DNA of 31,493 bases. Origin: a virus. The notes under the pieces are model-generated. The model saw only the letters and a list, made by a program, of their open reading frames with translations, was not told the DNA's origin and ran no database searches. Numbering within the stretch: position 1 is the stretch's first letter; every line of letters starts with the position of its first letter. The stretch spans positions 1-31,493 of the IMG/VR virus record IMGVR_UViG_3300033148_006747. One strand, written 5' to 3'. Shown here piece after piece: positions 18,347-30,190 of this stretch. Both the position numbers and the translations under genes were made by a program.

Positions 18347-20338
18347 TCAAATCCACTTCCCCGGCCTTTCCACCCACCCCTTGCGTGACCTTTGCCTGGG
18401 CCTGCGGGCGGTGGGGAGAGAAGTCTTTTGCCTTTCGGCCTTTTGCTCCTTTTGGCCTGGTTTCTTCCAGTATTTCACGCCCAAGTAGTCGGCCGCCACC
18501 AGGTTGTAAACCGAGCAATCCCAGGCGTGGTTTGCACGGCCCTGGGGGTTCTCCCATAGGCCTTTGTCATTGATATACTCAGCACACATCTGGCGTGCCC
18601 ATTCCTCGGTGGTCTCGCTGTGGAGGTGCCAGGCCCCGGGGTCTGCCGGGGCAATCTCCAGCTTGTGGGCCAGGATGTTTTTGTAGAAATTGACATCTGC
18701 CCGAAGTAGGCGCAGGCCTCCGGGAATGGGCTTGCTGGTGCCAGGGTACACATCCAGCTTGCTGAGAGCCCAGGGCTGGCGCATGCGCTGCTCGCCCTTG
18801 AAGGGCAGAAGCCTTCCGCGGTGGAGCCGTGCAAAGTCATACACCTCGGCCGTGCGGTGGCCCATGGCATCATGCACCACAAAACGGACACGGTATTCAT
18901 TGCCATCAATATCGAAATATGCGTCCTCAAAAAGAACCTGGGCCAGGGCCTCAAAAGTGTCCACAAAGCCCTCGCGGATCTGCCAGCTCTCAAGCGCCAG
19001 GCCATAGCCCCATGCCCGGATCTCATACCAAAAACCATTGTCCTGGGTATCCACTCCGGCGGTGAGGCAGCTTATTATGCCGCCGGAAGGCACCAGCCCC
19101 CGGGGCCGATCATCGCGAAGGGCCAGGATTTTGTCCTCTTCTCGCTCCTGGGTATAGTCGAGCCATGGCAAGGCTTGGTGTTTGTTGCGAAAGTCCTTGA
19201 GCTTGGTCTTATCAGTGAGAGAGCGCAAAAAGGCGGCCGCCACCTCTGCAAGACCGACAAAATGAGAAAGCCACGATGGAATATGAAAGGCGATCTTCAA
19301 GGGCCGCTCGGCCTCCAGATAAGGCCAAAGGCCGCGATTACCCTCACGGGCTTGCCCGCTCGTTTCGTGGGGGCGGGTGCGCCATTCACCCTTTGCTACC
19401 GCCATATCACGCATATAGTCATCCCAACGGGCCTGACAATGTTTGCACTCATACCAGGCAAGGCCTAGCAGTTCGATCTTGCGGGGATCCCGCTCATCTT
19501 CAGGCCATTTGATCTGCTCAAATTCCATCACCTGGCGCTTGCCGCACTCCGGGCAGCGCACGTGGTAGTCGAATATCACCTGGGCTTCCTGGGTGAAGGC
19601 CTTCCAGATGGGGCCATCCTCAATGGTAGGCGTGCTGACCTTCCAGATCTTGCGGCCGGAATATTTATAAGTGGTGGTGCGGGCCTCACCAAGGGATATA
19701 GGATCAGCCTCGCGCTTGCCTGCGGTCTCAGGGTACTTATCTACCTCGTCAAAGATCACGTAGCGGATGGACTTGTTGCCCAGCTTTATGGCCGAATGCG
19801 CCCATGCCATATAGATCTGCATGTGCTGGAGATTGATGCGTTTGGCCGCTTCGTCATCAGCCGAGCCTGTAAGATAGGAGCGGAGCCGGGGCGAGGTATT
19901 GATCATGGGAATGATGCGGTCTTTGGCGTTTTCTTCTGCTGTGTCGCGGTCGGGGTACACATAGAGTACGGGCCCAGGGTCTCGGTCTATGATATAGCCC
20001 ACGCAGGTGTCCACGCATGCGCTTTTGCCCACCTGTGGGGCGGAGACCACGATGATGGTCTGGACCGATGGGAAGAACGAGGCGTCCATGATGCCGGCAA
20101 GATAGGGCGTGGTGGAATTGCGCCAGCGGGTGCCCTCAAGGGGCCCGCGGGTGACCACGCGGTGTGCCTCTGCCCAGCGGAAGACTGGAATCTTGCGCCG
20201 CCGGCGGAACCGCCTGCGCTCGGGCCCGGTAAAACGCAACACCCTGGATGCTCCAGCGGCCTGCCTTGCAGGTTCGGGCACCCATGGCCGGAATATTGGA
20301 ATGTGAATGGGTTCTATTTTAGTGGCTATGTTGAGCAT
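18347..20338 (-). CDS. Terminase large subunit, lambda gpA family
   Basis: A 663-residue DNA-packaging motor of the GpA family. The ATPase half shows the Walker A-like VSAPQVGKS (98-106) and Walker B YVIFDEVD (193-200). A zinc-binding pair follows (Cys262/265 and Cys298/301, in CPECGK and CKHCQ). The nuclease half has the RNase H-type acids: Asp430 in TAGVDTQDNG, Asp490 in VVHDAMGH and Asp607 in NHAWDCSVYN. This enzyme cuts concatemers (cos-type in lambda) and drives DNA through the portal. It lies after the TerS-containing fusion gene, as in lambda. The length matches the family. GpA types usually pair with a small subunit, here the C-terminal half of the fused gene. Confidence 0.95.
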   Translation of the reverse strand: MLNIATKIEPIHIPIFRPWVPEPARQAAGASRVLRFTGPERRRFRRRRKIPVFRWAEAHRVVTRGPLEGTRWRNSTTPYLAGIMDASFFPSVQTIIVVSAPQVGKSACVDTCVGYIIDRDPGPVLYVYPDRDTAEENAKDRIIPMINTSPRLRSYLTGSADDEAAKRINLQHMQIYMAWAHSAIKLGNKSIRYVIFDEVDKYPETAGKREADPISLGEARTTTYKYSGRKIWKVSTPTIEDGPIWKAFTQEAQVIFDYHVRCPECGKRQVMEFEQIKWPEDERDPRKIELLGLAWYECKHCQARWDDYMRDMAVAKGEWRTRPHETSGQAREGNRGLWPYLEAERPLKIAFHIPSWLSHFVGLAEVAAAFLRSLTDKTKLKDFRNKHQALPWLDYTQEREEDKILALRDDRPRGLVPSGGIISCLTAGVDTQDNGFWYEIRAWGYGLALESWQIREGFVDTFEALAQVLFEDAYFDIDGNEYRVRFVVHDAMGHRTAEVYDFARLHRGRLLPFKGEQRMRQPWALSKLDVYPGTSKPIPGGLRLLRADVNFYKNILAHKLEIAPADPGAWHLHSETTEEWARQMCAEYINDKGLWENPQGRANHAWDCSVYNLVAADYLGVKYWKKPGQKEQKAERQKTSLPTARRPRQRSRKGWVERPGKWI

Positions 20339-20341
20339 TAT

Positions 20342-20728
20342 TTAGCTTCTCTCTTGAATATCAAATCTAGGATCGCGGGCCTCAAAATATAATGGTTTCT
20401 TAGCGATTTCTTTTCGAATATATTCATCTGCAAATAAGGGACATTTCTTTTCAGCTCTTAATCTAAGCCTTCTCAACCGATTTTTTGCTTTTGCTTTACG
20501 TGACCACTTTTTTTTAGCAATATATTCCGGTTCCCATGTGACTACATAACCAGGATTAGCTGCAGCTATAATCTCTAACTCTTTTGGGGGCTTTTTTTCT
20601 TTATTAGCAGCCCAATTTTTTATCTCTACTGGCCCCGCTAGCCTTATAGGCATACCCTCAGGCGGCTTTGTGTACGGATTCAACCATGTGACCGACCAAA
20701 ATCCACTATAAGCGTCATTCTTACCCAT
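20342..20728 (-). CDS. Basic protein of unknown function between terminase subunits, 128 aa
   Basis: A 128-residue, strongly basic protein. The N-terminal half is aromatic (GFWSVTWLNPYTKPPEGMPI). A central run of Lys and Arg (KKKWSRKAKAKNRLRRLRLR, about 72-91) looks like a nucleic acid-binding helix. The tail ends in ARDPRFDIQERS. It overlaps the PRTase-TerS gene by 8 bases and ends 3 bases before TerL, so it is clearly part of the packaging operon. I do not recognise a family. A DNA-binding packaging helper would fit. Confidence 0.6.
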   Translation of the reverse strand: MGKNDAYSGFWSVTWLNPYTKPPEGMPIRLAGPVEIKNWAANKEKKPPKELEIIAAANPGYVVTWEPEYIAKKKWSRKAKAKNRLRRLRLRAEKKCPLFADEYIRKEIAKKPLYFEARDPRFDIQERS

Positions 20729-21824
20729 CAGTAAACATCACGTGAAATTCCCTGGTGGAGGCATACTCGTTCATCAGCTCGCCATAAGCGTCGTGTAAAA
20801 ACCTGATAAGGTTCGGAAGCTTTGATGTATCTCCTCCCACCAGTTCTATTATTTCTCCTGCCTTTTCGTGGATCATGGCCTCAAAACCTGCCATGAGCAC
20901 GCCAGCACGGGCGGCCAGCTCCAGCTCAAAATCTGCCCTGGGGATAAGAAGCCCTTCTTCACGTTGCCTTTTGAGTTTAGCAATTTTGACCTGCTCTTCT
21001 CTAAAGGCTAGCTCAAGCTTCTCGCGGGTGCGTCGCAACTCTTCGTCATCCAGCTTGAGAGTTAACTCCTTAGGCCTAAGCCATGTGCGAGCATATTTCT
21101 GCACTGCCTTTAGAGAGAAAGTGCCATCCTTTTCAGGGCGAAGCTTGCCTTCTTTCTTAACGTGATTGTATATCGTGCTCTTCGATACCTTCCACTCATT
21201 CTTGAGGTATTCGTAGACTTCAAGGGTGTTTTTAAATGTATCCTTCCCGGCAATGGAAGGCTCAGAATCTTTGTGATTGACCTTTAGTGTTATGTCCTCG
21301 GCTTCATTTGGTTCGAGCCTGTAGTAAAACGCCAGACATGCAGGCTTCACCTCAAAACCAAAAGATTCAAGTCTCTCTTTAAAGTGCACGATGGTCCGTC
21401 CAGTTGTGCATATGTCATCGACCAATAGGATTTTTTCTCCTTTTGTTATGCCAGTGATTATGTAACTGCCGCCATAATCATCCGGTAGGGGCTTGTTGTG
21501 GTTGTATTTGCGAGTTTCGACGTTTCTTATCCTTGAGATATTTGCCCCAAATAGTCTTTGTAGCTGATTCGGCTGGTCTGATGGCTTGCTGGGTGGAATA
21601 GCCACTATCTTATCGCAACTTAATTCAGCAGCCAAAGATTCACACAGCGCTTTTACCTCTGCTGCGTGCTTGCCTTTTTTCTTAAAATCAAACACCCATT
21701 GTGTCTCGGTCTTCAATTCGTCCGAGTGATCTAGCTGGCGCAATTTTCCCAGTGAAGGTAGATATAGTTTGAAACCATAAATACCCTTCCAGATTAAAAC
21801 TCTATGTTTGAGTTCCTGTGCCAT
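20721..21824 (-). CDS. Phosphoribosyltransferase fused to terminase small subunit
   Basis: One unbroken 367-residue frame holds two recognisable parts. Residues 1-~175 look like a type I phosphoribosyltransferase (ComF-like). The PRPP loop is LLVDDICTTGRT (133-144), with a flexible-loop region (YNHNKPLPDDYGG) before it. Residues ~195-367 look like a phage small terminase: an HTH (TLEVYEYLKNEW with KVSKSTIYNHVKKEGKLRP, 200-229), a charged helix (EELRRTREKLELAFREEQVK), and an ending IELVGGDTSKLPNLIRFL with NEYASTREFHVMF. TerS recognises packaging sites and works with the TerL gene just downstream. No Met lies at the junction. A PRTase on TerS is not an arrangement I know. The gene starts 4 bases after the SLOG gene. 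Confidence 0.85.
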   Translation of the reverse strand: MAQELKHRVLIWKGIYGFKLYLPSLGKLRQLDHSDELKTETQWVFDFKKKGKHAAEVKALCESLAAELSCDKIVAIPPSKPSDQPNQLQRLFGANISRIRNVETRKYNHNKPLPDDYGGSYIITGITKGEKILLVDDICTTGRTIVHFKERLESFGFEVKPACLAFYYRLEPNEAEDITLKVNHKDSEPSIAGKDTFKNTLEVYEYLKNEWKVSKSTIYNHVKKEGKLRPEKDGTFSLKAVQKYARTWLRPKELTLKLDDEELRRTREKLELAFREEQVKIAKLKRQREEGLLIPRADFELELAARAGVLMAGFEAMIHEKAGEIIELVGGDTSKLPNLIRFLHDAYGELMNEYASTREFHVMFTDG

Positions 21825-21828
21825 CCCT

Positions 21829-22212
21829 TTATCGTCTTTTTATGTATGGCCTTCTATCTCCGTTAACAATCTCAATGCGAAGCCCTTTCTTCTTCGCCTT
21901 TCTAATCATGTCTCTTGTCCCTTTTGACTTGGCTATGTCTTCATGAAAGGCTATCACCAAATCAATGTCGGGGTTTTCATCAAGCATTTGCTGATTCCTT
22001 ATTGGTCCTGCCCCCTTGCCATACGTGTCCCAGTTCGCTGGATACACCCTAGGCGTAGGTAAGCCTATTTTTCTTGCTATTTGGTCGGCCATTCTGTCTG
22101 CACCCCGGCAGCCACCATGAATTATCAAAGTATCATGTGGCAACCTGCTCAATCTGCTATTCATAAGCTTCCAGTTGCTCCAGTACCTACTTCCTGTGAT
22201 CAATACTTTCAT
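21829..22212 (-). CDS. SLOG-family (DUF2493/YspA-like) nucleotide-binding protein
   Basis: A 127-residue Rossmann-like protein with the SLOG pattern: KVLITGSRYW (2-11), the glycine loop IHGGCRGADRMAD (31-43), AGPIRNQQMLD (68-78), AFHEDIAKSKGTRDM (88-102) and basic end GDRRPYIKRR. SLOG domains (related to LOG, DprA and the TIR-like sensors) bind or process nucleotide-derived ligands. I choose the start at 22212, where GGGAAG precedes the ATG; the frame upstream reads into structured DNA. It lies 4 bases before the PRTase-TerS gene and they are probably cotranslated. Nucleotide-binding plus a PRPP-binding enzyme suggests a shared ligand. The actual substrate is unknown. Confidence 0.85.
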   Translation of the reverse strand: MKVLITGSRYWSNWKLMNSRLSRLPHDTLIIHGGCRGADRMADQIARKIGLPTPRVYPANWDTYGKGAGPIRNQQMLDENPDIDLVIAFHEDIAKSKGTRDMIRKAKKKGLRIEIVNGDRRPYIKRR

Positions 22213-22440: not shown

Positions 22441-22548
22441 GCCTTTCGATCGCATGCTATTACGGGCGGGCATAACTCCATGAAATGTCGCTCCTTTCCC
22501 CTTTTTAAAGACTTCTAAAACAAGCTCCCTCAGACCGCTATAGTCCAT
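22390..22548 (-). CDS. Candidate small protein, 52 aa, overlapping the primase end
   Basis: The frame starts at an ATG within the last codons of the primase gene and gives MDYSGLRELVLEVFKKGKGA and 32 more residues, with a clear amphipathic helix at the start and a HGVMPARNSMRSKGGEGQ basic segment. The 19-base overlap is like coupled genes. The ribosome site is weak, and the stop TAG falls inside the 22383 hairpin. It fills part of a 317-base gap that would otherwise be non-coding. No family is recognised. Confidence 0.35.
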   Translation of the reverse strand: MDYSGLRELVLEVFKKGKGATFHGVMPARNSMRSKGGEGQTGILPQYRETEA

Positions 22549-23591
22549 GCTTCGGGCAATCCCGCAGCCACCCATGCCCGGATGTCCACGCCCGCCTTGT
22601 ACGCCTCGCCCAGGTCTTTACCTGTAGGCGGGGGCCAATCCTTGGCCTGAGGAAACTCCTTGAGCCACCATTCTGTATACTTAGTGCCAGCGCTATCGTA
22701 GTCCAGACTCACCAGGATCCTCGCACATGACTTGAGCACCTCATAAAGCCCCTTGTCCGGTTTTGCATTGGCTGAGCCCAGGGCTACGGCCCCGGCCATA
22801 TCAATGGCCTGCTGCTCAAGGAGCATTGCATCCAGCTCGGATTCCACGACTACGAAGGCCCTCTGCTTCAAGCCCCGGACAAAGGTGGCGGAACTGGATC
22901 CGGGCACCACATAATACCGGGGCTCACCCCTGGGCCGGCGTACGCGGATCCGCACATACTGGCCCTTCATCCGATAAGGGATCACGAGCCCCTGTGGGAT
23001 CCACAAGCGCTTTTTTTGGCCGTCAGACTTTTTCTCGGTGGGCAGGCCCCAGTTCTCCCGGGGCCTGAAGATATCCGCGGGACACCAGCCAAGGCGAAAC
23101 AGCTTGATGCCCACTTCGCTGATGCCACGCTCTGCTAGCCAGCCCTTGACCGGATCGTTTCGCATGAGGTTCTCAAATGCCCACTGGATCATCTTTTGTG
23201 CTTTGTGCTGCCATTGCTCGGGAGGCTCTGGCGCTGGCTCCGGGTGCCAGGGGATATCCTCCGAGGCCTGTTGCTTAGGCGCAGGTGTTTTCATGGGAAC
23301 CTGGCGGGGTGGGTCGATCTGAGCCAGTTCACATGCTTCCTTGAAGCTGCGGCCTTCGAGATCGCGAAGCGCTTGTATCACATCGCCAGATTTGCCACAC
23401 TGCCTGCACCAGTATGAGCCTCCCTTATCGCCCCATTCGGGCAATACGTGGAACCGGTCGGAGCTGCGACCTTTGCCGCCATCGCCGCACCAGGGACATG
23501 GGCCCTGATATTCCAGCCCACGTTTCTGCGTCCTGGTGCGAACATTATGTGCCCATCCATTCTGCCGAAACACATCCAGGACAGTCAGCAT
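22530..23591 (-). CDS. Zinc-finger/Toprim DNA primase-like protein
   Basis: A 353-residue primase. A CHC2-like zinc finger opens it: Cys32, Cys35 (PCPWCGD), Cys62 and Cys65 (YWCRQCG). A linker and helical region follows (125-165). The Toprim part has Glu250/Glu252 in AFVVVESELDAML and Asp297/Asp299 in RILVSLDYDSAG, the two acidic sites that bind metal. It would make RNA primers for phage replication. I put the start at 23591, before MLTVLDVFRQNGW, where the domain begins; the longer frame to 23651 adds an unlikely leader. It is separate from the SF3 helicase gene upstream, whereas in P4-type phages primase and helicase are fused. Confidence 0.88.
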   Translation of the reverse strand: MLTVLDVFRQNGWAHNVRTRTQKRGLEYQGPCPWCGDGGKGRSSDRFHVLPEWGDKGGSYWCRQCGKSGDVIQALRDLEGRSFKEACELAQIDPPRQVPMKTPAPKQQASEDIPWHPEPAPEPPEQWQHKAQKMIQWAFENLMRNDPVKGWLAERGISEVGIKLFRLGWCPADIFRPRENWGLPTEKKSDGQKKRLWIPQGLVIPYRMKGQYVRIRVRRPRGEPRYYVVPGSSSATFVRGLKQRAFVVVESELDAMLLEQQAIDMAGAVALGSANAKPDKGLYEVLKSCARILVSLDYDSAGTKYTEWWLKEFPQAKDWPPPTGKDLGEAYKAGVDIRAWVAAGLPEAWTIAV

Positions 23592-23804
23592 GATCCTATG
23601 GCCTTTATCCCTGTTTTGGGACCTTATGGACCTTAAAACCCCATGGTCCACCTAAGGTCCCTATTAATTTCTTTATTATTTTCAATAAGTTTTTTCTTAT
23701 TAGGGATGATTGGACCTTAAATGTATGTAATAAACTACTAGGAGTTAGTGCTTGCCCTGGAAAATTAATTATGTGCACTTTTCGTTCTATGGTCCCTTTC
23801 ATCC
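23592..23804. promoter_or_regulatory. AT-rich gap with repeated GGACCTTA octamers, candidate replication origin
   Basis: Between helicase stop and primase start, GGACCTTA occurs at 23619, 23628 and 23712, and its inverse TAAGGTCC at 23653. Partial GGTCC copies lie at 23645 and 23791. Between them is a very AT-rich run (about 23660-23700). Repeated sites plus an AT-rich block beside replication genes is the usual look of an iteron-type origin. It could instead be an operator region. A 65-codon frame on the minus strand here (23605-23802) looks like chance. Confidence 0.4.
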
Positions 23805-25433
23805 CTACAGACCCGATAGCAACCGCAGCCCGACATAATAAAAAGTACCAGATTTAACCTTTTCAAACCTATCTTTCATCAATTTTCCAAATTTTCTTTG
23901 GGAGGGGATGCTTTTCTTGCTAACGTGCCCTTCCCACCAGTCTTTGAACGCATCATATAGCTCAGATGCCTGCACCCGGGCCGTGGGATCGATATAACAG
24001 CATTCCTCAATAAACTTGCCGAGGTCATCTTCATCGCTGCGATACTCTTCTGTCTTCTCGCGTATTACCTCCGGAGGATCCAGCCCCCGTTCTTGCCACT
24101 TAATACAGCCGCGCACGAGCCAGGCCAGGATGCCAGAAGCCTCGCGCTGGAGCTTTTCTGGTAGCGTCTTATCGGCCCGCCGCTCATTGTTCTTCTGAGG
24201 TGTCCGGTCCACGAATGCCATCTCGAAAGGAATGCAATGCACGCGCTGCCAAAAGGCGAAATCATTCGGGTTCACTCTGGGCAAATTGTTTGTTAACAAG
24301 AACAGCGTGTGGGTCGGTCTAAATCGAATTTCATGTTTGTCATGGGGTAGCCGGCCCACCAGTGTGTCTCCGCCCACCAGCCATTTAACCCGAGCAGTGG
24401 AAAACCGCCGTCCCTCGTCTGTCTCGCTCGCAAATGCCAACCTCAACCCCCGTAGTGCCATCACATCAGGAGAGGGGCCTGCTGAGCTTCTCACACGCCC
24501 CTGGTCCAGAAGCATTTCGGATTGTATAGACCCAGCCAACGGTCCCAGTACATGGCAGATTGCCTCCACAATCGTGCCCTTGCCATTACGGCCCTTGCCG
24601 TAGAGTATAGGGAATACGTGCTCCCGCGTGAGTCCGGTGATGGCATAGCCAAATAGCCGCTGCAGATACTTGATAATGCTCTCGTCACCATCGAATATCT
24701 CGAACAAGGCCTGCTCCCAGGTCGGCGCTGGCCCGTTGATTCCTTTCCATTCCGTTGGTGCCGCCTTGAGCAGATAATCTTCCGGCCTCCCCGGCCTTAA
24801 CTCCCCTGTTCGCAAATCAATGACTCCATTCTTACAGGCCAGTAACCAGGGGTTTTGATCCAGCTCATCGCCTTTAATACTCAGGGATTTGACCGGGTTA
24901 CTATGGGCAAATTTGAGGCAACTATTGCGCCTGGTGTCAGCCCGCAACGAATACACCCTTTTATAGATCCACTTTTGGGTCTTCTCTAATTGAGCGATTT
25001 GCTGCTTGGCGTCTTGGTCACCCCCTTCGCTCGCCTTGGCTATCTTTTGTACAATATTCACCGCCTCGCGCAGGTACGCACGGCACACATCTTCAACAGC
25101 CGCCAAGGAGCTTTCCATCACGTCCAGCTCCCAGTGGTGTCCAGTCCATCTGAGCCACTCACGGCTGGATTTGTTGTATACGTACTTGCCTTCATTGAGG
25201 ACGCTGTAGAGAATCCCGTCGCCCAGCTCATTGGCATTGAGGCATTCCTCGATCAGGTTAGAGTCCACCTTGTCCGTACCAAATCCACCAGGCCCCTTAC
25301 TACTGCCGCCACCTAAGCCCTTGTCTTTGTCCACCTTGGCCTCTTGCTCCAGCTTGGCGGCCCTTTCTTTGGCCCTGGCCTCAACCGCCTGCCGAATCCT
25401 CTCTATTTTTTCTCTATCAGCACCGTTTTCCAT
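23805..25433 (-). CDS. Phage SF3 (D5/P4-type) replicative helicase
   Basis: A 542-residue protein. After a charged, Gly-rich leader (1-60), residues ~65-225 match the D5 N-terminal region (NELGDGILYSVLNEGKYVYN; LLACKNGVIDLRTGELRPG), and residues ~240-500 form the SF3 ATPase. This has Walker A GKGRNGKGT (279-287), an acidic Walker B in LAFASETDEG (332-341), and sensor TNNLPRVNPN (381-390). The C-terminus is a winged-helix-like domain (KSIPSQRKFGKLMKDRFEKV). These helicases load at the phage origin and unwind DNA. Normally they carry a primase half; here that is the next gene. It is the rightmost phage gene, 250 bases from the attachment site. The start follows GGAATGG. Confidence 0.9.
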   Translation of the reverse strand: MENGADREKIERIRQAVEARAKERAAKLEQEAKVDKDKGLGGGSSKGPGGFGTDKVDSNLIEECLNANELGDGILYSVLNEGKYVYNKSSREWLRWTGHHWELDVMESSLAAVEDVCRAYLREAVNIVQKIAKASEGGDQDAKQQIAQLEKTQKWIYKRVYSLRADTRRNSCLKFAHSNPVKSLSIKGDELDQNPWLLACKNGVIDLRTGELRPGRPEDYLLKAAPTEWKGINGPAPTWEQALFEIFDGDESIIKYLQRLFGYAITGLTREHVFPILYGKGRNGKGTIVEAICHVLGPLAGSIQSEMLLDQGRVRSSAGPSPDVMALRGLRLAFASETDEGRRFSTARVKWLVGGDTLVGRLPHDKHEIRFRPTHTLFLLTNNLPRVNPNDFAFWQRVHCIPFEMAFVDRTPQKNNERRADKTLPEKLQREASGILAWLVRGCIKWQERGLDPPEVIREKTEEYRSDEDDLGKFIEECCYIDPTARVQASELYDAFKDWWEGHVSKKSIPSQRKFGKLMKDRFEKVKSGTFYYVGLRLLSGL

Positions 25434-25684
25434 TTTTCCATTCCAAATAAAATCCTAAAAACGGCCGACCATCGTGCTGGTGGAAACTGTGTTCAAGGCC
25501 TTCAGGAAGAACCCAAAGGGATTGACTTTACATTTTGGACCTTGTATAGATAATAAAAAACTAAGTAGGGGAGTAGTGGGGGATTTGAGGGTAAAAGAAC
25601 TACATTTGAACCCTTTTCGGCTCACATTAACGCATGATTTAGCTAAAATGAACATGATTAACAAAAGATAGAGCCGTATTACTT
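25434..25684. other. Non-coding prophage end
   Basis: No credible gene is seen here. The minus-strand frames read through the tRNA fragment. One GGACCTTG copy (25537-25544) resembles the octamers in the helicase-primase gap. The stretch is AT-rich and must hold the promoter for the leftward replication genes, but no clear -35/-10 pair was recognised. It ends at the junction with the tRNA-Ser fragment. Confidence 0.5.
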
Positions 25685-25747
25685 CGCCTGCTAAGCGAGT
25701 GTGGGTCGAAAGATCCACCGAGGGTTCGAATCCCTCTCTCTCCGCCA
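25685..25747 (+). tRNA. 3' fragment of tRNA-Ser(GCT), prophage attachment-site scar
   Basis: From CGCCTGCTAAGCGAG this is the anticodon loop (GCT), the long variable arm, a normal GGTTCGAATCC T-arm, the acceptor CTCTCTCC, the G discriminator and CCA of a serine tRNA. The 5' half (acceptor, D-arm) is missing; the bases to the left are phage DNA. This is what integration into a tRNA gene leaves at the end opposite the restored gene. The break lies at the anticodon stem, a usual crossover point for tyrosine integrases. It is not a working tRNA by itself. Confidence 0.85.
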
Positions 25748-26134
25748 TTTTTTTGAATAATCTCGATCCAAAATCGAAATTTCCTTCTGGCCGTTATGGC
25801 CGTTATCAGAGCATTGATTCCAGGCGGTTCAGGTTTGCTGTGAAAACGGGGTTGTTTTTGTGGACCCAAGAACAGGGGGAACGGAATATTCCCTCCATTA
25901 ATTTCCCGCCTAAGGCGGACAAGCACTGCGGATTCTTGCCTGCAGCAAGCAGCTTTGCCCTTTCCGCTATCCTGCTCTAAGGCCAAAATACGCCGCTTCG
26001 GGAACACTCCGTTCCCCTTATTTGTCAAGATGGTGTATTTTTATAAATGAGCTGTTTTTCGGTGATGATCAGCAAAAGGCGGCAAGAAACAAAGGGTTAT
26101 GGTGGAAGTTGCCTTTAGTAGATAATAGGTGGTA
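25748..26134. other. Host intergenic region with REP-like repeats
   Basis: A T-run just after the tRNA fragment could end tRNA transcription. A direct repeat GGCCGTTAT occurs twice (near 25790). The stretch holds the 142-base inverted-repeat element described separately and a CCGCCTAAGGCGG palindrome near 25907. No gene is credible. The minus-strand frame through here runs across the tRNA fragment and is a known artefact type. Confidence 0.6.
25876..26017. repeat. 142-base element with 18-base inverted ends
   Basis: The left end GGGGAACGGAATATTCCC (25876-25893) and the reverse complement of the right end (26000-26017) match in 16 of 18 bases. Each end can also fold on its own. A REP-like CCGCCTAAGGCGG lies inside. 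This may be a small non-autonomous mobile element or a repeat typical of the host. No clear target duplication was seen. Confidence 0.5.
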
Positions 26135-27094
26135 ATGAGTCATTGGATCTCTATGATACGCGAACTGGGGAGAGCTGTGCCGGTCATCGGGCAATTGCTG
26201 ATGAAAAAGGTGGCGGCAGCGGCAATAGATATTACCCATCGGTGCAACCTACGCTGCAAGCATTGTTATTGGTGGGAGCAGGATCACCCCAATGAATTGG
26301 ATGATGTGCAAATGGTACGTTTTTTCCGGGCCTTGAGGGGGCAAGGACTACGTGCGGCTATATTGTACGGAGGGGAGCCGGCCCTGCGCCCCAGTATCTG
26401 CAAGGCAGCTAGTGAGGTATTTGATTTCACATTAATTTTTACCAATGGGACCCTTGGATTCCCTGAAATCCGAGGTGGTCAATGGATACTTTCTCTTGAC
26501 GGCCCTCGTCAAATAAATGATGCTATTCGAGGCTCTGGGGTCTTTGATCTTGCTGTAAAGAACCTCCAAAAGGCAACGCGGTCACCCATAGTTCATATTA
26601 CTATCACACAGTGGAATGAGCCTTATTTGGAAGAGTTTTCACAGGAAATGCTGGGCCTTCCCGTAAAAGGGATAGGCTTTTCTTTTTATACCCCTATGCA
26701 TACAAAGATCGACGACGAGCTTTTGATCCCGGTTTCCAAGAGGGAGGGAGTGATTAAGAGGCTCCTGGCACTGCGGGAGAAATACGGGGAGCAAATAGGG
26801 TTTACGGAGGCCATGGGAAGGCAGCTTTTGCCAACCGCCGGGTTTCATGCATGGAACAGCTATGAAAGGTGCCCTGTTTCCAAGGGCCTCAGGTGTTATA
26901 AGGCCAATGGGGAGCCCAAGGCCTGTACCTATGGTGATAACGCTGATTGTACCAGATGTGGATGCGCTGCAGTGGTGGCCTTCAGAGGAGCGTTTTATCC
27001 ACCCCATTATGAAACCATGCGCCTGATTTGGGGTTTGTTGTCACCAGGCTTTTCACCAAAAACCCGCAATGGCAAGGGAGACAATGGGAACTAA
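26135..27094 (+). CDS. Radical SAM protein
   Basis: A 319-residue radical SAM enzyme. The [4Fe-4S] site is CNLRCKHC (Cys37, 41, 44), followed by YGGEPALRPSI, the usual G-G-E-P motif for SAM binding. The C-terminal part has a Cys-rich run (about 245-285: RCPVSKGLRCYKANG, ACTYG, DCTRCGC), so an auxiliary iron-sulfur cluster is likely, as in SPASM-type enzymes. Such enzymes modify peptides or lipids through radical chemistry. The product here is unknown. I chose ATG at 26135, with AGGTGG just before; a GTG at 26129 is possible. The gene overlaps the next by 11 bases. Confidence 0.85.
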   Translation: MSHWISMIRELGRAVPVIGQLLMKKVAAAAIDITHRCNLRCKHCYWWEQDHPNELDDVQMVRFFRALRGQGLRAAILYGGEPALRPSICKAASEVFDFTLIFTNGTLGFPEIRGGQWILSLDGPRQINDAIRGSGVFDLAVKNLQKATRSPIVHITITQWNEPYLEEFSQEMLGLPVKGIGFSFYTPMHTKIDDELLIPVSKREGVIKRLLALREKYGEQIGFTEAMGRQLLPTAGFHAWNSYERCPVSKGLRCYKANGEPKACTYGDNADCTRCGCAAVVAFRGAFYPPHYETMRLIWGLLSPGFSPKTRNGKGDNGN

Positions 27095-27811: not shown

Positions 27812-30190
27812 TCAGGTTTCGTCCAATTTGCGCCAGATGGTACCCTCAGGGGTATCCACAAGCTCAATGCCCATATCCCGAAGCTGATTACGTATAGTAT
27901 CAGCAGTATCCCAATCCTTTTTCTTTCGGGCGGTCTCTCTTTCTTTGATCAAGGCCATGATTTCCTCGCTTATTTGGTGTGGTTCCAGATGCATCACACC
28001 CAGGACGGTATTGATTCGCTCAAGTGCTTTGAGCGTTTTTGTTTTATCATCTTGGGAGAGGCCGTGGCGGTCCATTATACGATTAATCTGTCTCATAAAA
28101 TGGAAGAGAGAGGCAAGACCTGCGGCTATATTCATATCGTCGTCCATGGCCTCTGTGAACCCATGGCGCAGATCATAGATAAGCTGGTCAATTTCCTGAT
28201 TCGGGGGGGCTTCGGCACAGAAATGCAATTTTTGGACAAAGCTGTCTAAATGGGCCAAGGTGTTTTTGACTGAATCCAGTTTTGCCCAAGAAAATATGAG
28301 GGGCTTGCGATAGTGACGACTCATGAGGAAATAACGCACTTCTCTGCCTGTGTAGCCCTCTTTTAGAATATCTCTCAAAAGGAGTAAGTCAGGGGCTTGC
28401 GAGTCGGCCCCTTTATTGTTGTTCACCGTCACCAATTCATTATGCAGCCAAAATTGGGCTGGTGGGCTGCCACTTAAGGCCTTGTTGATGGCTATGGCAT
28501 TTTCATGGTGAGGAAATATAAGCTCCACGCCACTGGTATGTATATCATAGGTCTCACCAGCAAATTTCCGTGCAATGGCAGAACACTCTAGATGCCAGCT
28601 GGGTCTTACGTTGCCCCAAGGGGTCTGATAAAAGATCCCTTTTTTCAACTCATTTAAGGTAGACCTTTTTAGTAATGTGAAGTCCCTAGGATTGTCCTTC
28701 TCATATTGATCTAAATCTACGGTTTTACCCAGTTGAATCTTGTCAAGATCGATCTTTGAAAGGTTTCCATATCCCTTTGCACGAGATATGTCAAAATAGA
28801 TGGAGCGGAACTTTTCGTAAGCAAGGCCCTTTTCCACAAGCTTTTTAGTCAGGGAGATCATCTCGTCAACATGATCAGAGGCCTTTGGATAGTGGGTCGC
28901 CTTTTTGATGTTGAGTTTATCCAGGTCTTCCATGAAGGCCTTATAATAACCCTCTGTATACTCCTTTAGCGACATATCGGCCTTTTCTGCTCCCTCAATT
29001 GTGCGGTCGTCCAGGTCTGTGACATTCATAATATAAATGACCTTGAATCCCTTGAACTCCAGGTAGCGTCTCAATAGATCTGCAAACACAAACCTCCTGC
29101 ACTGCCCCAGGTTGATTAATTGGCAGAGGGTTGGGCCGCAGGAATAGATAGTCACCTGGTTTTCCTCCAGGGGTATAAATTCTTCTTTCTTGCGAGTGAG
29201 CGTGTTGTAAAAACGTATGCCGGAGGTCTTTTTTACAGTGAACAGGGGGGTACTCAGATATCGCTCGCCTCCGTCAGGCAAGACCACCACAATGCGGCCC
29301 TTGTCCATTTCAGCAGCAAGCCGCAACGCTGCTGCCATGGCTGCTCCGGAACTCATACCAACGAACACCCCCTCTTTTTTTGCCAGTTCCCTGGCCGTAT
29401 GAAAGGCCTCTTCATCATCAATATGAATTATTCGGTCCAGAAGCTCTCGCTGAAAAATCCCGGGTTGATAAGACTCTTTCATGTTTTTGAGGCCTTGAAT
29501 CTTATGGCCCAAGTAGGGTTCCACCCCTACCACCTGTATACGTGGGTTGAGTTCCTTAAGACGACGAGCAATCCCCATAAGCGTACCAGTGGTTCCCATG
29601 GTCGCCATGGCCACATCCAACTGCCCCTGAGTTTGCTTCCATATCTCCATGGCCGTCCCGTGGTAATGGGCCTTCCAATTGGCCTCATTGTTGAATTGAT
29701 CTGCCAGCCAATACCTATGAGGCTCTTCACGTACCAGTTTGTAAACATATTCAATGGCCCCGTCAGTGCTAAGCCGTGCAGGGGTGAAGCGAATTTCAGC
29801 GCCCATGGCCTTGAGGATCTTGACCCTTTCTTGGCTTACGGACTCGGACATGACCAGTAGGATCCGGTAGCCTTTGACTGCAGCCACCAGGGCAAGACCG
29901 ATACCAGTGTTTCCGCTTGTGGCCTCAAGGATGATTTTATCTTTAGTAAGCTCGCCTCTTTTTTCAGCTTCTTCGATCATATAAAGGGCAGGCCTGTCTT
30001 TTACCGATCCGCCCGGGTTGAAGCACTCCAATTTGGCCAGGATTTGCACTTGACTATTGGTAGCCAGCTTTTGAATCGGGACAAGAGGGGTATTCCCAAT
30101 CAGGTCCAAGATGTTGTCGAACTTTTTGGCCATGTAATGCAGCTCTCCGTCAAAGTTAAGCCTGTCACTATATCCAACCATTTGGTTCAT
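27812..30190 (-). CDS. Cysteine synthase fused to a degenerate cysteinyl-tRNA synthetase-like domain
   Basis: A 792-residue two-domain protein. Residues ~20-320 are cysteine synthase (O-acetylserine sulfhydrylase, PLP-dependent): IGNTPLV, the PLP lysine Lys64 in NPGGSVKDR, the phosphate loop MGTTGTLMG, and SSGAA near the end. Residues ~325-792 align with CysRS, for example YLEFKGFKVIYIMNVTDLDD and REVRYFLMSRHYRKPLIFS. But HIGH is INLGQCR, KMSKS is replaced by NNNKGADSQAPD, and the fourth zinc ligand in FPHHENE is Ala (FPHHENA). Cys351, Cys536 and His561 remain. The second part is probably not a working synthetase. Met20 (30133) is an alternative start closer to the usual CysK N-terminus. A normal cysS should exist elsewhere. 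Confidence 0.9.
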   Translation of the reverse strand: MNQMVGYSDRLNFDGELHYMAKKFDNILDLIGNTPLVPIQKLATNSQVQILAKLECFNPGGSVKDRPALYMIEEAEKRGELTKDKIILEATSGNTGIGLALVAAVKGYRILLVMSESVSQERVKILKAMGAEIRFTPARLSTDGAIEYVYKLVREEPHRYWLADQFNNEANWKAHYHGTAMEIWKQTQGQLDVAMATMGTTGTLMGIARRLKELNPRIQVVGVEPYLGHKIQGLKNMKESYQPGIFQRELLDRIIHIDDEEAFHTARELAKKEGVFVGMSSGAAMAAALRLAAEMDKGRIVVVLPDGGERYLSTPLFTVKKTSGIRFYNTLTRKKEEFIPLEENQVTIYSCGPTLCQLINLGQCRRFVFADLLRRYLEFKGFKVIYIMNVTDLDDRTIEGAEKADMSLKEYTEGYYKAFMEDLDKLNIKKATHYPKASDHVDEMISLTKKLVEKGLAYEKFRSIYFDISRAKGYGNLSKIDLDKIQLGKTVDLDQYEKDNPRDFTLLKRSTLNELKKGIFYQTPWGNVRPSWHLECSAIARKFAGETYDIHTSGVELIFPHHENAIAINKALSGSPPAQFWLHNELVTVNNNKGADSQAPDLLLLRDILKEGYTGREVRYFLMSRHYRKPLIFSWAKLDSVKNTLAHLDSFVQKLHFCAEAPPNQEIDQLIYDLRHGFTEAMDDDMNIAAGLASLFHFMRQINRIMDRHGLSQDDKTKTLKALERINTVLGVMHLEPHQISEEIMALIKERETARKKKDWDTADTIRNQLRDMGIELVDTPEGTIWRKLDET

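Follow-up and report, generated by a model that had tools for sequence, protein, structure and literature searches.

Why should the small subunit of a phage terminase (TerS) carry a phosphoribosyltransferase (PRTase)? TerS is a small protein that initiates genome packaging, its DNA-binding and packaging assays are well established, and to our knowledge it is not known to be present in the virion. The question is raised by one gene of the window, by which we mean the whole stretch of viral DNA analysed here (31,493 nucleotides, IMG/VR record IMGVR_UViG_3300033148_006747). A first-pass annotation of the sequence had proposed that a single frame joins the two domains, and an open reading frame is present at exactly those positions (20721-21824, minus strand, 367 amino acids, stop codon inside the coordinates). 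Residues 1-180 form a PRTase domain similar in type to those of ComFC, ShosT and mobile elements (21285-21824), with its PRPP-binding loop at residues 132-144 (21393-21431); residues 181-195 form a linker of low AlphaFold confidence that has no internal start codon (21240-21284); and residues 196-364 form the TerS domain (20733-21239), comprising a winged helix-turn-helix (HTH) at residues 200-248 and three long helices at residues 260-355, all on the minus strand. The junction between the PRTase and TerS lies at about residues 180-196 (window ~21237-21287), in agreement with the earlier placement near 21250. We regard this anatomy, which is borne out by Pfam and PHROG matches and by an independent contig, as near certain; the mechanism discussed below is what we infer from it.

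A chimeric assembly or a frameshift error could in principle have joined two genes, and the confinement of the fusion to a single lineage would fit such an artefact. However, besides the window, IMG/VR holds two further carriers, 3300033141_006331 and 3300014911_000254 (L003), the latter encoding a fusion protein 97% identical to that of the window. Since 3300033141_006331 hardly differs from the window over 31 kb, the sequences represent effectively two independent genomes, rather than three, of a single lineage. Between the window and L003, 149 of 150 nucleotides are identical across the junction and the frame is unbroken, whereas the genes for the large subunit (TerL) share 90% DNA identity and the last third of TerS 67-92% per 60 nucleotides. 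As the same unbroken frame occurs in a diverged contig and in a second, near-identical one, and as TerS has no alternative start, we rejected a sequencing error or two-gene origin, and an artefact is extremely improbable; two separate genes, which the first-pass annotation had named as a finding that would count against it, were not seen among related phages. The only in-frame start-type codon between residues 150 and 225 is a GTG at residue 159, within the PRTase, so that internal initiation of a separate TerS, an option we considered and rejected, is very unlikely and the fusion is very probably the only form in which TerS is made. From the primase through the SLOG gene to the end of the PRTase part, L003 hardly departs from the window; identity then drops to 67-92%, which places a mosaic boundary inside TerS (20740-20990). 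In the PRTase the two differ at 1 nucleotide in 570, a distance at which dN/dS is uninformative.

How firmly can the N-terminal half be placed? The Pfam model PF00156 (Pribosyltran) matches residues 123-176 with E = 5.2e-8 (32.8 bits against a curated cut-off of 26.3), covering profile positions 81-133 of 158 only, that is, the PRPP-loop half; absence of any PRTase profile match had been the other finding named as counting against the claim. The 13-residue loop of type I PRTases is present, ILLVDDICTTGRT, and its acidic pair and TTG are intact, as had been claimed. Among defence-system models the best match was the PADLOC ShosT model PDLC03962 (3e-9, residues 55-156; a second ShosT model gave 0.033). 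When controls were scored on PDLC03962, two genuine ComFC proteins reached 8e-14 and 3e-12 and PyrE 0.012. Because genuine ComFC proteins score better on this model, 'ShosT-like' is not a specific description and we dropped the assignment of this half to ShosT; by sequence it groups with ComFC/ShosT/PsyrT-like PRTases, without a claim to the name ShosT itself. Among NCBIfam models, PyrE and Apt rank first, all far below their cut-offs. Compared with the signature of polyvalent-protein PRTases (Iyer et al., 2017), a catalytic DD motif and an arginine after strand 2 that ComFC also conserves, the DD pair is present and, in an alignment of low identity, the position of the conserved arginine is occupied by Q, with R90 three residues on. 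AlphaFold modelled this half from a shallow alignment with a pLDDT of 49; the models are unreliable, and two Foldseek searches returned no significant match.

The C-terminal half is on firmer ground. PHROG_57 (terminase small subunit) matches residues 213-355 with E = 2.2e-7 in the whole protein and 3.4e-8 when the C-terminal half is searched alone. A scan with the TerL of the window yielded 125 viral contigs, of which 80 were kept, and a profile yielded 26 genome contigs, mostly from Desulfobacterota; these TerL-matched contigs contain 82 non-fused homologs of the TerS half. In the AlphaFold2 model of this half, three long helices follow a winged HTH, and most blocks have a pLDDT above 80; structure prediction, which had been suggested for the protein, was thus confident for TerS and failed for the PRTase. 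By homology, the C-terminal half is a bona fide TerS, with a predicted DNA-binding winged HTH and predicted oligomerising helices.

What precedes the TerS domain differs between the window and its relatives. In the 82 non-fused homologs this part is 0-150 residues long (median 66.5) and mostly helical-looking; among TerL-matched contigs, the window lineage alone has 195 residues there, including the PRTase. Most TerS proteins of the clade, to which L101 1205-2230, L019 and L012 belong, carry a variable, helical-looking N-terminal extension of 60-80 residues, missing in others; the TerS of L101 seems to have two N-terminal extensions in tandem, and the region ahead of the HTH behaves as a modular slot. 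A TerS presumed to work in packaging would probably have gained the PRTase domain as a substitute for the short helical extension that is usual there. Might the PRTase fold then serve only as an oligomerisation or spacer domain, devoid of any ligand function? Variable extensions at the same position fit such a structural role, but neither an intact acidic pair and TTG in the PRPP loop nor an adjacent SLOG gene would be expected of an inert spacer, and we consider this reading improbable.

The SLOG gene (21829-22212, minus strand, 127 amino acids) lies directly upstream. The first-pass annotation, whose domain calls and fusion both stand, had overlooked it, as it had the known theme of PRTase fusions to which we return below. 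The gene product matches the YAcAr profile PF10686 above its cut-off (E = 1.5e-13) and PHROG_289 (E = 8e-29), contains the motif GGCRGAD (GGxRGAD) and does not match the ShosA and PsyrA profiles. Its TAA stop is followed by AGGG and then by the ATG of the fusion, a spacing of 4 nucleotides; because of this arrangement, the two genes are probably translationally coupled. On the same strand, a primase (CHC2 zinc finger and Toprim, 22530-23651) and a D5-like primase-helicase (23805-25433) lie further upstream, identified by profiles and, in locus comparison, common to the non-fused relatives. Downstream are a 128-residue ORF (20342-20728, minus strand; PHROG_27524, function not assigned), which overlaps the end of the fusion gene by 8 nucleotides, and a TerL of the gpA family (18347-20338, minus strand; PF05876, E = 5e-68; PHROG_15). 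Non-fused relatives (e.g. L011) encode the D5 helicase, primase, TerS and TerL without SLOG or PRTase. As neither the SLOG gene nor an ORF with the PRPP motif is present in any other TerL-matched locus, SLOG and PRTase occur together in the window lineage only among these loci.

Such a locus could also have arisen by capture of a cassette. In that case PRTase and SLOG would be a nucleotide-metabolism or counter-defence unit (for purine salvage, or for repair or removal of a nucleotide signal), fused to TerS only through adjacency, with the two domains acting independently on one chain. SLOG, PRTase and the 128-residue ORF are AT-rich (GC 0.40-0.45, with 0.395 for the ORF) between a primase and a TerL at 0.58, and non-fused relatives keep primase, TerS and TerL without any of the three, as would fit a captured cassette; in addition, YAcAr SLOG proteins and PRTases have been proposed to serve phages as nucleotide/NAD conflict modules (PMC7824862, PMC5512222). 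However, values of 0.46-0.50 occur in the portal, capsid and tail genes as well, which makes the compositional step weak evidence for capture; no precursor with separate genes was found, and two genomes that have diverged both retain the fusion. We regard a passenger enzyme as possible, though rather unlikely. The 128-residue ORF is absent from L003, where TerS and TerL overlap directly (L003 2268-2289); it seems to have been inserted recently between the two terminase genes, unless L003 has lost it. At the boundary between phage and host, positions 25640-25745 hold a degraded tRNA-like sequence that matches the tRNA-Sec model below its cut-off; an indel of about 40 bp between the window and 3300033141_006331 falls there, a possible remnant of an attachment site. 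A radical SAM protein (26129-27094) is encoded at the edge of the phage region, and in the host-like flank a single ORF of 792 amino acids (27812-30190) combines a cysteine synthase (PALP) domain with a complete cysteinyl-tRNA synthetase.

The search for the same fusion elsewhere, which had been suggested with the original claim, found none beyond the window lineage. No further fusion was detected in 395 Desulfobacterota genomes, in 50,697 phage records, among the other viral contigs or in the genome contigs, where the scan would have reached close relatives only, as holds for single-sequence scans of big collections. Scanning two classes with the PRTase half gave no further fusion either, and the two matches examined, from one class, were ComFC. 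The nearest TerL relatives, L010 and L088 (62-64%), end less than 500 bp upstream of TerL, before TerS, and the age of the fusion therefore cannot be bounded. Judging by the TerL relatives only, the carrier phages probably infect Desulfobacterota. The first-pass annotation knew of no described TerS with such an enzyme; likewise, we found no description of a TerS-PRTase fusion in the open-access papers searched.

The adjacent SLOG gene points to systems that pair SLOG or DprA proteins with PRTases (ShosTA, PsyrTA, RqlHI, ComFC/DprA) and not to plain nucleotide salvage. A DprA and PRTase pair encoded in a hotspot of P2-like phages confers protection against T7 and lambda, and DprA homologs act as antitoxins in shosTA, syrTA and rqlHI (PMC9122126). 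RqlH is a fusion of a PRTase to a helicase; its toxicity needs the PRTase, through which RqlI binds RqlH, and the RqlH PRTase alone is not toxic, which implies that the DNA-handling partner matters (PMC4670107). According to PMC12593503, citing Pu 2025, ShosT consists of a PRTase and a pyrophosphatase and disturbs purine pools. Pairs of SLOG and PRTase genes, separated by 0-1 nucleotides, also recur on Bacteroidales plasmids and other elements (L146 1326-2397, L147 2974-4156, L148, L149), where the pairing is conserved and some of the PRTases are annotated as ribonucleotide reductase or PRPP synthase; on a Segatella plasmid the PRTase adjoins a clear ShosA. These pairs are probably an uncharacterised conflict module. 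Their PRTases share with the window the N-terminal YLP...FK.G and P-x-S motifs, outside the loop, at about 20-28% identity, as well as the PRPP loop and the adjacent SLOG gene. In contrast to the window, they have no TerS, the PRTase precedes the SLOG gene and the SLOG is of the YpsA type rather than YAcAr; as gene order and SLOG subfamily differ, SLOG with PRTase is a recurrent association and not inherited synteny. Two large phage contigs (L153, L154) encode SLOG relatives that lack a neighbouring PRTase.

On this basis, our tentative preference is for a SLOG-PRTase effector or sensor pair, similar to RqlHI and ShosTA, whose PRTase now resides on TerS and is restrained or switched by SLOG. 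Gene order and the 4-nucleotide spacing show the fusion gene to be the second member of the pair. Its PRTase domain would bind PRPP or a nucleotide and act, perhaps toxically, on a pool of bases or nucleotides or directly on DNA. The TerS winged helix would hold it on phage DNA, comparable to the attachment of the RqlH PRTase to a helicase, and the SLOG protein would contact the PRTase to restrain or switch it. The likely benefit would be a nucleotide-dependent effector at the phage DNA end at the time of packaging, directed at competing DNA or at functions of the host and kept in check by the phage's own SLOG. The two domain profiles, the intact loop, the close spacing, the confinement of the pair to one lineage among TerL-matched loci, its recurrence on Bacteroidales elements and the stronger score on the ShosT model than that of PyrE all speak for a SLOG-PRTase pair, as does the literature cited above. 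Against it stand the small YAcAr SLOG, unlike DprA-type antitoxins and unmatched by the ShosA and PsyrA profiles; the better scores of genuine ComFC proteins on the ShosT model; the reversed order and YpsA-type SLOG of the Bacteroidales pairs; the lack of a reliable structure model for the PRTase half; and the cost to be expected if a protein essential for packaging carried an active toxin.

Together with the passenger enzyme, a close rival is a sensor that gates packaging: the PRTase would no longer be catalytic, as with PyrR, PurR and possibly ComFC. Each TerS subunit would contribute a pocket for PRPP or a nucleotide, the nucleotide pool would govern how the ring binds DNA or hands it over to TerL, and SLOG would make or sense the same ligand. 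In ComFC, the PRT domain has both PRPP and AMP as ligands and DNA transport depends on it, a regulatory role being left open by the authors (PMC9005727, where PurR and PyrR are cited as well); in the window the PRTase occupies the slot of the helical extension in other TerS of the clade; and fusion to TerS would provide one pocket per ring subunit. However, the intact PRPP loop gives no sequence sign of lost catalysis, no relative has an intermediate state, and the need for SLOG is left without explanation, so that ligand gating, although conceivable, seems to us rather doubtful. Of the three uses that the first-pass annotation had put forward for the domain, namely a tie between packaging and PRPP or nucleotide levels, a chemical mark on DNA or protein at the packaging site, and a counter-defence passenger, our results favour none decisively.

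If a SLOG-PRTase pair is indeed at work, the packaging initiator would carry a nucleotide-dependent switch or effector, either coupling packaging to a PRPP or nucleotide signal or delivering an RqlH-like, DNA-directed PRTase activity through TerS. We offer this with caution; if true, phages would have a novel means of controlling or arming the packaging of their genomes. PRTase domains elsewhere bind PRPP and have roles in DNA uptake, toxin-antitoxin and anti-phage systems. For the role of these domains in ComFC, RqlH, ShosT and polyvalent proteins of phages, a natural TerS fusion offers a direct test, since the effect of PRPP or nucleotides on DNA binding or packaging, or an action of the domain on DNA, can be assayed with it. 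Should SLOG prove to be the partner, the SLOG and PRTase theme of toxin-antitoxin and defence systems would extend to the phage packaging machine.

How does the fusion compare with the systems already known? With the PHROG_57 TerS proteins upstream of gpA-type TerL it shares homology over the whole length of its C-terminal half, the position before TerL and the winged HTH with helices, whereas none of the 82 non-fused homologs has a PRTase. ComFC, whose PRTase fold is linked to DNA transport, has a similar DDxxTTG loop and FK motif; the PRTase of the fusion, in contrast, lacks the zinc-finger N-terminus, is 19-20% identical over the domain and matches no ComF profile above cut-off. ShosTA and PsyrTA likewise place PRTase and SLOG-superfamily genes side by side, but the SLOG of the window is YAcAr rather than a DprA-type ShosA, and its PRTase is fused to TerS. 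RqlHI is formally like the fusion locus, in that a PRTase is fused to a DNA-handling protein beside a SLOG/DprA-type partner; there, as in PsyrTA, the PRTase is joined to a RecQ-family helicase and RqlI is DprA-like, whereas here the partner domain is TerS and the SLOG is a small YAcAr protein without an HTH. Finally, phage and plasmid polyvalent proteins carry PRTase domains on components of the packaging or entry apparatus, a theme described for MuF fusions (Iyer et al., 2017; PMC5512222). The simplest published fusion of this kind is to MuF, a virion protein, whereas in the window the PRTase is joined to the packaging initiator. PRTases on DNA-handling proteins of phages and mobile elements are thus already known from MuF fusions and RqlH, and TerS as the partner is a new variant of this theme rather than its first example.
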